From Thermomicrobiales bacterium (GTDB lineage: Bacteria > Chloroflexota > Chloroflexia > Thermomicrobiales > UBA6265): 64,000 bases of DNA. The stretch covers positions 1 through 64,000 of the forward strand of contig JAMLHR010000013.1 in the NCBI GenBank assembly GCA_023957015.1, written 5' to 3'. Under the pieces are notes generated by a model. That model saw nothing but the letters and a program-made list of their open reading frames with translations, was not told the DNA's origin and searched no databases. A program made the translations under genes and the position numbers. This document shows positions 11,575-15,028 of the stretch, in pieces (position 1 is the first letter of the stretch; every line of letters begins with the position of its first letter).

Positions 11575-12303
11575 ATGAGGCGCGAACAGACGCTGGCAGA
11601 CCGTATCACCGGTTCCGCGTTGTGGCGATCCGTGGTTCGTCACGGATATCCGGATACGCAACGGAATCAGGCGCTCATCATCGCCAGCAATGTGTTCCTG
11701 CACATTCACCCGGTGAAGATCAAGCGCTACGCCACAAAGGTGACTTACACCTTCTGCCTTGGCGGCCTTTCCTTCTTTATGTTCCTGGTCCTCACCATGA
11801 CCGGTGTGCTGCTCATGTTCTACTACGTGCCCAGCACCGATCTGGCCTACCAGAGCATGAAGGATATCGAAGGCAGCGTGACCTTCGGTCAGTTGATGCG
11901 CAATATGCATCGCTGGGCAGCGCAGGGCATGGTGATCGCGGTATTCCTCCATATGGGTCGCGTGTTCTACACCGGCTCCTATAAACCACCGCGAGAATTC
12001 AACTGGGTCATCGGTGTGCTGCTGCTCGTAGTCACCTTCCTGCTCTCCTTTACCGGCTATCTGTTGCCGTGGGATCAGCTGGCATTCTGGGCCGTCACCG
12101 TGGGTGCCGAAATCGGTGGCGCTACACCGATCATTGGTCCGCAGGTGAGCCGCGTGCTCCTGGGCGACTACCAGATCGGGCAAAATACCCTGATTCGTTT
12201 CTACACACTACACGTCATCTTCCTGCCGTTGGTGGCCGCCTTCTTGATGGCTGTGCACTTCTGGCGGATTCGCAAGGACGGCGGCATTTCCGGTCCGCTC
12301 TAG
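11575..12303 (+). CDS. Cytochrome b6-type subunit of a quinol oxidoreductase complex
   Basis: The four-helix, di-heme core of a cytochrome bc/b6f-type complex in the cytoplasmic membrane. It oxidises quinol and passes electrons to the Rieske protein and across the membrane. Its 242 residues match b6 length. Heme ligands are H112/H126 (13 residues between) and H213/H228 (14 between); the 14-residue spacing in helix D is the b6-type signature, against 13 in mitochondrial-type cytochrome b. C61 in TFCLGG aligns with the Cys that covalently holds heme cn in cytochrome b6. It is first of five genes in an operon with subunit IV-like, Rieske, cytochrome c-cupredoxin and a small membrane protein. RBS gaggag precedes ATG. 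Confidence 0.9.
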
Positions 12304-12341: not shown

Positions 12342-13124
12342 ATGGCAGAATTGGTACAGCAGCCGACCGACGCGGCCGCACAGATCGACGAAAAGAAGAA
12401 GCAAAAGCTGCTTGAGTTGGTACGCGGGCGCGCCGTCGCCCGTCCCACCGACCTGGCAGACGATGAGGTGATGGTCTGGCCATCGCTGGTCGTGATCGAG
12501 GCGGTCTCCGCCGCGATCTTCCTGGCGATCATGTTCGTACTGAGCGTGATGGTCAATGCGCCGTTGCTGGAACGAGCAGATCCAAACAAGACACCGAACC
12601 CGGCCAAGGCACCGTGGTACTTCCTTAACCTGCAGGAAATGTTGCTGCACATGGATCCGGCGCTCGCAGGCATCATCGTGCCGACGGTCGCGCTGGCCAG
12701 CATCGCTGCCATCCCCTACATCGATCGCAGTCCGCTGGGTGTCGGTGTGCTGGGTACGTCCTCCAAGGGTCGCACGATCATCGCCTTCACCACCGTGTTC
12801 ACCAGTGTGGTTCTGATCGGCCTCATCCTTCTGGATGAAGCCAGCGGTCGCACCGGTTTCTGGATGAAGACCGTCTTCAATGATTGGGGCTGGCCGGAAT
12901 GGACCAGCGGTATGGTGATGCCAACTCTGGTAATCGGTATCTTCGTGGGTATGTTGGTGGTGATGGTGAAGAAGATCTTCAACCCCACCACTCGTGAACT
13001 CATCATCGCCCTGTACACCGGATTCTTTGTCACATACTGGTTACTGGCGATTGTCGGCACATCATTCCGCGGTCAGGGACAAGACCTTACCCTCCCGTGG
13101 AATCTACCGCTGGTTCACCACTAG
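12342..13124 (+). CDS. Cytochrome b C-terminal / subunit IV-like protein with extra helices
   Basis: The second half of the split cytochrome b, forming the quinol-oxidation site with the preceding protein. ATG at 12342 is chosen for its gaggagagg site. The 260 residues contain about five hydrophobic helices (near 49-72, 106-126, 145-165, 190-213 and 224-244), against three in plant or cyanobacterial subunit IV. The usual PEWY Qo-site motif appears as APWY (NPAKAPWYFLNLQEML near residue 90), so the Glu is replaced, as in several anaerobe and Chloroflexota-type complexes I recall. It starts 38 bases after the b6 gene. Confidence 0.85.
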   Translation: MAELVQQPTDAAAQIDEKKKQKLLELVRGRAVARPTDLADDEVMVWPSLVVIEAVSAAIFLAIMFVLSVMVNAPLLERADPNKTPNPAKAPWYFLNLQEMLLHMDPALAGIIVPTVALASIAAIPYIDRSPLGVGVLGTSSKGRTIIAFTTVFTSVVLIGLILLDEASGRTGFWMKTVFNDWGWPEWTSGMVMPTLVIGIFVGMLVVMVKKIFNPTTRELIIALYTGFFVTYWLLAIVGTSFRGQGQDLTLPWNLPLVHH

Positions 13125-13183: not shown

Positions 13184-13783
13184 ATGAATCCATTGTTGAG
13201 GACAGTTGCAGGGTTGGGTACTGGCTGGGTAGCTGCACGTGGCCTGGCCGTGGCTTCTCGCCTTCAGGCTGGCCACGGAGAGACGGCCGCCGCCAAGGTA
13301 CACAGCCGCCGATCCTTCACCCGCAATGCCGCACTCGGTGCCAGCGCCGTGGTTCTTACCCAGCTAGGCGTTACCTTTGGTTTGCTCATGTGGCCGCATA
13401 AAACCGGAGCCTTCGGTGGCGATATTCCGGTGGGTGCGGACAATATCCCCGGTGTAGGTGAAGAGCCTTTCCGCCATCAGGCAGGCAAGTTCTATCTGGT
13501 GCGTAACGAGGATGGTATTCAGGCCCTGTACTGGAAGTGTGTCCATCTCGGCTGCACCGTGCCATGGAATGCAGGTACCAGTCACTTCCAATGCCCGTGT
13601 CACGGCTCTATCTTCGATGTCAACGGTTCTCGAACCGGTGGCCCGGCAACTCGTCGCCTGGATCGTATGCCGATCACGGTGAAAGAGGATGGTTCGATTA
13701 CGGTCACCACGAATCCGAACACGATCGAGGAAGCTGCTGGCCGCACCGACTATCTACCGACAGATGCGACTCCCTACCCGTAG
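13184..13783 (+). CDS. Rieske [2Fe-2S] protein
   Basis: The high-potential iron-sulfur subunit of the complex, accepting the first electron from quinol. In the 199-residue protein, C119 and H121 (CVHLGC) and C137 and H140 (CPCH) are the cluster ligands; C124 and C139 supply the disulfide. A twin-arginine-like SRRSFTR at residues 41-47 precedes the hydrophobic anchor (about 48-69), fitting Tat export with an uncleaved membrane anchor. The 40 residues before it are unusual for the family. ATG 13184 follows caaggaag; an upstream in-frame start at 13097 would overlap the previous gene. Confidence 0.9.
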   Translation: MNPLLRTVAGLGTGWVAARGLAVASRLQAGHGETAAAKVHSRRSFTRNAALGASAVVLTQLGVTFGLLMWPHKTGAFGGDIPVGADNIPGVGEEPFRHQAGKFYLVRNEDGIQALYWKCVHLGCTVPWNAGTSHFQCPCHGSIFDVNGSRTGGPATRRLDRMPITVKEDGSITVTTNPNTIEEAAGRTDYLPTDATPYP

Positions 13784-13840: not shown

Positions 13841-14803
13841 GTGGGATCAGTTCGCAAACTCGCAACAGTGGTGGTGATTGCCCTCATTGCTGTTGCAACC
13901 GCGGTCACGGTGTATACGGCCAATGAGCCGAACCGTCGTGAGAGCGAGACGACCGAGCAACAGAATACGCAGATCGAACGCGGTACCAGTCTATACATCA
14001 CGTACTGTCTGCAGTGCCACGGACCGGCTGGCCTTGGTGCCGCGGAGAAAGGCCCAGACGGCACCGGTAGCATGGGCCGCACCGGCGGTATCCTGAATCA
14101 AGCAGCACTCTATCCTGCTGATCAGCTCGCGACATTGCAGATCGTGTTCCAGAGCGATGATCCGGTGAGGCAAGGCATAGCTGAGGATTGGATTCGCTTC
14201 CGCATCATGTACGGTCTTCCGTCCGAACCACAGGTCAAGCAAGACGGCAGTGTCCAGGTACAGATGCCCGCATTTCGACATGATCTGAACGTCGAGCAAA
14301 TCAACGATCTCGTTTTCTTGATTATGCATGGCGACTGGAACTACGTATATAACACGGCCATCCATCAGACAGGTCTGCAGGTTTGCGAGCAGACACCGGA
14401 AGCGGAACGAACCGGTATGTGTGAAGGCGATATGCATGATGCCGCCGCCTATCCCACCGCTCCACCGAAGGCTGATGCGGAAGTCGATGCTGACGCCACA
14501 CCAACCGAAGCACCAGCAGCCGATGGCACAGATCACGCCATTGAAGCTGTCGACACCGCTTTCGATACCAACGCGATCACGGTGAAGCCAGGCGATACGA
14601 TTACGCTCACCAATAGCGGCTTCCTGCAGCATGATCTGTATATCGATGGCCTTGGTATCGAGACGAATCTTCTGAACGGTGGTGAGACGCAGACGATTAC
14701 GATTCCGGCGGATGCAGCGCCCGGTGACTACGATTTCTGGTGCACGGTAACTGGTCACAAGGAATCCGGTATGCAAGGCATCATCACGGTTGTTGCACCG
14801 TAG
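13841..14803 (+). CDS. Membrane-anchored cytochrome c fused to a cupredoxin domain
   Basis: A 320-residue electron carrier outside the membrane. A signal/anchor is at residues 5-25. Heme c binding CLQCH is at 56-60 with a likely distal ligand M142. A low-complexity Ala/Asp/Pro linker spans about 205-232, followed by a cupredoxin domain with type 1 copper ligands H264, C301, H306 and M311 (plastocyanin/auracyanin-like spacing). It probably takes electrons from the Rieske protein through heme to copper, then on to a terminal oxidase. GTG at 13841 has a good taaggaga site; an upstream GTG frame to 13820 is less likely. It is the fourth gene of the operon. Confidence 0.87.
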   Translation: MGSVRKLATVVVIALIAVATAVTVYTANEPNRRESETTEQQNTQIERGTSLYITYCLQCHGPAGLGAAEKGPDGTGSMGRTGGILNQAALYPADQLATLQIVFQSDDPVRQGIAEDWIRFRIMYGLPSEPQVKQDGSVQVQMPAFRHDLNVEQINDLVFLIMHGDWNYVYNTAIHQTGLQVCEQTPEAERTGMCEGDMHDAAAYPTAPPKADAEVDADATPTEAPAADGTDHAIEAVDTAFDTNAITVKPGDTITLTNSGFLQHDLYIDGLGIETNLLNGGETQTITIPADAAPGDYDFWCTVTGHKESGMQGIITVVAP

Positions 14804-14821: not shown

Positions 14822-15028
14822 ATGCTTGTAACAAACCTCGCTACCCAGTTCGGTACACTCGCCGAGACTGTCGAGCTCTTCCTGGCGCTACTGTTGATGT
14901 TCAGCGGTATCTTCCTCACCTGGTTGGTGCAGAAGTGGGCCGACAAGACAAGCGAAGAGCACCCGGGTGCCGTCAATCTTGGTCAGGCAAATCCCGAGCC
15001 GAAACAGCCCAACACGATGCGAGACTAA
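14822..15028 (+). CDS. Small single-helix membrane protein of the b6-type operon
   Basis: A 68-residue protein with one membrane segment (about residues 16-36, VELFLALLLMFSGIFLTWLV) and a short hydrophilic tail. aaggaga lies ahead of ATG, 18 bases after the cytochrome-cupredoxin gene, and a terminator-like hairpin follows, so it is the last gene of the operon. Small single-helix subunits are common in bc and b6f complexes; this may be one, or an assembly factor. I know no named family for it. Confidence 0.65.
   Translation: MLVTNLATQFGTLAETVELFLALLLMFSGIFLTWLVQKWADKTSEEHPGAVNLGQANPEPKQPNTMRD

Follow-up and report, generated by a model that had tools for sequence, protein, structure and literature searches.

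A QcrC-like cytochrome c subunit with a C-terminal cupredoxin domain in a Rieske/cytochrome b operon of Thermomicrobiales

A predicted heme c and type-1 copper fusion in the quinol oxidoreductase operon

Within the window (the whole stretch of 64,000 nucleotides analysed here, contig JAMLHR010000013.1 of a Thermomicrobiales bacterium), one gene encodes a cytochrome c and a blue-copper domain in a single polypeptide. The earlier note had proposed that the protein takes the place of both cytochrome f/c1 and the soluble electron carrier. The gene is the fourth of its operon, directly behind those of the two cytochrome b halves and the Rieske protein:

11575-12303, + strand: cytochrome b N-terminal (b6-like) half, 242 aa (Pfam Cytochrome_B, 163 bits)
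12342-13124, + strand: cytochrome b C-terminal (subunit IV-like) half (Pfam Cytochrom_B_C; syntenic in relatives)
13184-13783, + strand: Rieske iron-sulfur subunit (Pfam Rieske; syntenic in relatives)
13841-14803, + strand: QcrC-like c-type cytochrome subunit of the Rieske/cytochrome b complex with a C-terminal cupredoxin (translation, Pfam, ligands, orthologue alignment, AlphaFold2)
14822-15028, + strand: conserved 68-aa single-helix protein, probable small subunit (a similar ORF lies directly 3' of the fusion in 13/13 same-family operons inspected)

The assignment to a quinol oxidoreductase operon thus stands, with a split cytochrome b and the Rieske gene directly upstream, and the fusion occupies the position of the c1, f or QcrC subunit, in agreement with the first half of the proposed replacement. 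Full-length matches to the N-terminal half of cytochrome b are 86-98% identical within the window's own Thermomicrobiales family (f1; records that have a name are MAGs assigned to Thermomicrobiales, Chloroflexia or Chloroflexi) and 82-85% identical in the sister family f2. The f1 orthologues of the fusion adjoin cytochrome b and/or Rieske wherever their flanks were checked, and the counterpart of the 68-aa ORF in one sister family is shorter.

Translation from a GTG start codon, with AAGGAG at the usual distance ahead of it, yields 320 aa, in which every residue quoted in the earlier note (CLQCH at 56-60; H264, C301, H306 and M311) was found as given. The following features were recognized (all + strand):

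13859-13921: N-terminal transmembrane anchor, about residues 7-27 (AlphaFold2 helix 2-27, hydrophobic stretch, conserved among f1 orthologues)
14006-14020: heme c motif CLQCH, residues 56-60 (C56, C59 and H60 invariant in 16 orthologues)
14264-14266: M142, probably the axial ligand of the heme (M142-P143 unchanged across 16 orthologues, present too in a diheme relative)
14357-14524: low-complexity linker, about residues 173-228 (201-228 with pLDDT <50; length and composition differ among orthologues)
14525-14794: cupredoxin domain, residues 229-318 (Pfam, AlphaFold2, Foldseek, PDB sequence matches)
14630-14632: H264, predicted copper ligand (H in 40/40 c-subunit cupredoxin domains)
14741-14743: C301, predicted copper ligand (C in 40/40)
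14756-14758: H306, predicted copper ligand (H in 40/40)
14771-14773: M311, predicted copper ligand (M in 40/40)

Both halves score higher than the curated Pfam cut-offs: residues 44-87 match Cytochrome_CBB3 (28.3 bits, cut-off 27) and Cytochrom_C (26.5 bits, cut-off 21.3), and residues 223-317 match Cupredoxin_1 (38.0 bits, cut-off 27) and Copper-bind (33.9 bits, cut-off 21.2). The AlphaFold2 model, for which 16 f1 members were used as input (mean pLDDT 76, pTM 0.55), has a helix at 2-27, a helical c domain, a disordered segment at 201-228 (pLDDT <50) and an eight-stranded barrel at 231-317; the barrel was matched by Foldseek to a Bacillus Cupredoxin_1 structure, Roseiflexus auracyanin and plastocyanins with probability 1.00. 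A Greek-key barrel with H, C, H and M ligands corresponds to the type-1 copper fold, and the anchor and the two domains agree with the reading of the gene as a putative membrane-anchored heme-c/type-1-copper fusion. The nearest solved proteins by sequence are plastocyanin, a three-domain CuNiR and auracyanin for the C-terminal part, and QcrC subunits of actinobacterial bc1 complexes for the N-terminal part (E 3e-5 to 9e-5). The NCBIfam profile bc1_QcrC_actin gave 32.7 bits (under its cut-off of 200), and the cytochrome f family was absent from the Pfam and NCBIfam matches of the fusion. The cysteines C182 and C194 (window 14384-14422, residues 182-194) stand just ahead of the linker and could form a disulfide; such pairs are seen in most of the close relatives with one copper domain and not in the multi-copper orthologues.

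Conservation of the fusion within its family

The earlier note had suggested a search for the same fusion in Thermomicrobia, and an order-wide search recovered an orthologue in 24 f1 genomes, all of them (24/24) of the heme plus copper type. The number of cupredoxin copies is variable: ten orthologues have one, nine have two and three have three, while one is truncated where its contig stops (one cupredoxin or more) and one is frameshifted in the linker. Eight f1 members remained without a recovered orthologue, in which absence of the gene is not established because the cytochrome b of four of them lies on contigs <5 kb. H, C, H and M were all kept in each of the 40 aligned c-subunit copper domains (39 from f1, the frameshifted one included, and one from family f5), so that loss of copper ligands in homologues, named earlier as grounds for rejecting the fusion, can be dismissed.

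The other such ground was that a frameshift or assembly error had joined two genes. One of the 24 orthologues (G012) is indeed frameshifted in the linker, but the other 23 separately assembled f1 genomes share the architecture, which rules out an artefact for practical purposes. In the G012 orthologue (L025:686-2070, - strand) the copper domain or domains continue in the next frame, which may reflect a sequencing error or a real break.

Exchange of heme for copper across Chloroflexota

The c subunit at the same locus is a diheme protein in f2 and f4, the nearest sister families, in families f7 and f10 and in most of the other Chloroflexota operons examined. As the same gene in the sister families and in most Chloroflexota examined is a diheme QcrC-like cytochrome, the copper domain of f1, judged from these comparisons, occupies the former position of the second heme. 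A copper domain instead of this heme was also found in f5 (G035), f33 (G280 and G347) and f85 (G415; here the cupredoxin was called from ligand motifs and BLAST similarity to the f33 domain, not from Pfam).

In the tree of cytochrome b, subunit IV and Rieske, f1 was nested among diheme lineages; f1+f2 and f1+f2+f4 received 100% support and f1 alone only 61%. Fitch parsimony of the heme/copper state on the complex III tree required a minimum of four changes. A single origin for all copper forms was rejected (AU p=0.00048); f1+f5 as one group was borderline and not firmly rejected (AU p=0.051), and for this reason we count at least two independent swaps, with four as the best estimate. The direction from heme to copper is well supported for f1, and we infer the same direction on the deeper branches. 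The recurrence of the swap, like the range of one to three copper domains among orthologues, had been overlooked in the earlier reading.

Proposed electron path and the oxidase side

We regard it as probable that the protein serves as the QcrC-like subunit in a Rieske/cytochrome b complex of the b6c type that oxidizes menaquinol, and that its ancestral second heme-c domain was swapped for a tethered cupredoxin that relays the electrons of the heme onward, probably to the heme c of a caa3 oxidase. Presuming that both sites are loaded and that the subunit assembles with its operon partners, electrons would pass from quinol to the Rieske protein, to heme c (C56/C59/H60/M142), to the type-1 copper (H264/C301/H306/M311) and then to the next acceptor, most likely the heme c fused to the caa3-type oxidase subunit II; N2O reductase is perhaps a second acceptor of the copper arm. 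Rieske, heme, copper is also the order given in the earlier note and the obvious one, with the flow presumably in that direction. As the linker is long and disordered and the copper copy number variable, a mobile tether is suggested more than a rigid wire, and a copper arm that swings in this way would take over the role of the second heme of actinobacterial QcrC.

In the own genome, COX2 (L127) combines CuA with a CxxCH motif in its C-terminal part (the heme was called from motif and position, Pfam having scored the COX2 domains only) and adjoins COX1; gene linkage between complex III and the oxidase is not visible because the contig of the oxidase measures just 3.4 kb. This is the typical form in f1, where COX2 has CuA and CxxCH wherever the C-terminus is complete (the CuA-only hits L150 and L151 resemble other proteins). 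The cupredoxin itself reaches the oxidase in some lineages. In G022, the oxidase subunit II (L133:847-2694, + strand; 615 aa) combines CuA, CxxCH and a cupredoxin in one protein, and this cupredoxin is 58% identical to that of complex III in G019, a member of the same family. In f33, COX2 has a C-terminal cupredoxin and no CxxCH (L244:922-2046, - strand, in G347; L248:838-2085, + strand, in G280), and the two f33 genomes (G280, G347) thus carry a cupredoxin on the complex III c subunit as well as on COX2 (47% and 41% identical within the genome). The COX2 cupredoxins of L244 and L248 have a short C-x2-H-type ligand loop. Apparently the same module thus occurs on both donor and acceptor, in support of a function where complex III meets the oxidase.

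A wider reading, which we put forward tentatively, is that heme c and cupredoxin are interchangeable plug-ins at the complex III-IV junction of Chloroflexota, exchanged time and again on the donor side, on the acceptor side or on both, and that the tethered f1 chain of up to three copper centres replaces any diffusible carrier and wires complex III directly to caa3.

Other carriers and acceptors in the genome

Family searches of the draft genome (about 91% complete) identified several other carriers, so that their absence, which the earlier note had left to be checked, is rejected. There are two monoheme cytochromes c, one of 175 aa beside an amine-oxidase-like gene and one that is a 206-aa lipoprotein, and an 804-aa lipoprotein (L036:8197-10611, + strand, C94) with six tandem cupredoxin-like domains, five of them with full ligands, and about 50% identity to the cupredoxin of the fusion. 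The first cytochrome gene follows that of an exported flavin amine-oxidase-like protein (L210:7671-9832, - strand, C11), and the two are apparently a periplasmic dehydrogenase pair. Relatives of L036 with 2-6 complete cupredoxin domains occur across f1 (L030, L033, L041, L043, L044 and L045). A 537-aa exported protein (L037:9213-10826, - strand, C28) is apparently a beta-propeller, with a cupredoxin domain at its C-terminus. The search for alternative complex III (PF14589) gave no match in the own genome, and none in the control genomes either.

As two monoheme cytochromes c and the multi-cupredoxin lipoprotein are encoded, a diffusible or lipid-anchored carrier may remain between complex III and the oxidase. 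The second half of the earlier proposal, the replacement of the soluble carrier, is therefore not established in a genome that has these carriers and a COX2 with a heme motif, and we treat it as hypothetical; in evolutionary terms, the part that gave way to the cupredoxin is the second of the two heme domains of a diheme c subunit.

The genome also encodes a NosZ-like N2O reductase (L038 7519-9561, - strand, C13; nos_propeller, CuA motif). Genes resembling NosD and an ABC transporter ATPase lie downstream of it, and NosZ is a possible second electron acceptor. With this enzyme and the two further monoheme cytochromes c at hand, the copper domain could stand outside the main path to oxygen and divert electrons to a copper enzyme, for instance N2O reductase, with the heme domain feeding the oxidase through a separate cytochrome c. 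We consider this unlikely, since every f1 orthologue retains copper domains, in f33 oxidase subunit II itself bears a cupredoxin of this kind, an indication of a place between complex III and the oxidase, and one of the candidate carriers adjoins the amine-oxidase-like gene, which suggests another job for it.

Copper handling rather than electron transfer, i.e., storing copper or supplying it to the CuA/CuB sites of the oxidase, would fit the richness of f1 in cupredoxins (the six-domain lipoprotein among them) and the fact that a cupredoxin can sit beside CuA on oxidase subunit II. The type-1 H-C-H-M set is invariant in all aligned domains, however, and the cupredoxin occupies the place of a redox heme, which makes a copper-handling role very improbable. 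Our preferred reading remains that of a tethered cupredoxin that would pass electrons from the heme c of complex III towards the oxidase.

Comparison with known systems

Cytochrome c6 and plastocyanin, a cytochrome c and a blue-copper protein, replace one another as soluble carriers in photosynthesis. Such an exchange of heme and copper carriers appears to have taken place repeatedly here within a core complex of respiration and, in some lineages, on the donor and the acceptor side of the junction with the oxidase alike. The open-access literature searched contained no account of a complex III cytochrome that bears a cupredoxin. The natural pairs of diheme and heme plus copper forms, with 82-85% identical cytochrome b, could be used to probe the role of the carrier domain in rate, potential and docking, and could show whether tethered carriers make soluble ones dispensable.

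The closest known system is QcrC, the diheme cytochrome cc of actinobacterial bcc complexes (e.g., PDB 6adq, 6hwh, 7q21, 8ovc), with which the fusion shares a homologous anchored N-terminal c domain, the place as c subunit of a Rieske/cytochrome b complex and, as proposed here, a second C-terminal redox domain that passes electrons on. In Actinobacteria, the cyt cc domain connects complexes III and IV without soluble cytochrome c (PMC8361435). Two CxxCH motifs define QcrC, whereas the fusion has a single one, and one to three type-1 cupredoxins follow a long disordered linker in the place of the second heme domain; it would thus work like cyt cc but lacks the defining second heme motif. Its cytochrome b is split as in b6, its partner oxidase has a heme c motif of its own, and a bound supercomplex is putative.

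With auracyanin and plastocyanin (PDB 6kol, 1ov8, 1fa4), its best sequence and fold matches, the C-terminal domain shares the cupredoxin fold and the H-C-H-M site; these are separate small carriers (auracyanin a stand-alone mobile or lipid-anchored one), whereas the domain in the fusion is covalently part of the c subunit of a quinol oxidoreductase. Cupredoxin and c-type heme are also fused redox partners in three-domain CuNiR with a tethered heme c or an extra cupredoxin (PDB 2dv6, 6tfd; PMC13324648, PMC6278305), which are nitrite-reducing enzymes, whereas the fusion belongs to complex III. Subunit II of caa3-type oxidases (CuA and heme c; L127 here) likewise provides a respiratory complex with a tethered carrier domain, in that case on the acceptor side, and in f33 it has a cupredoxin where the heme c domain would be.
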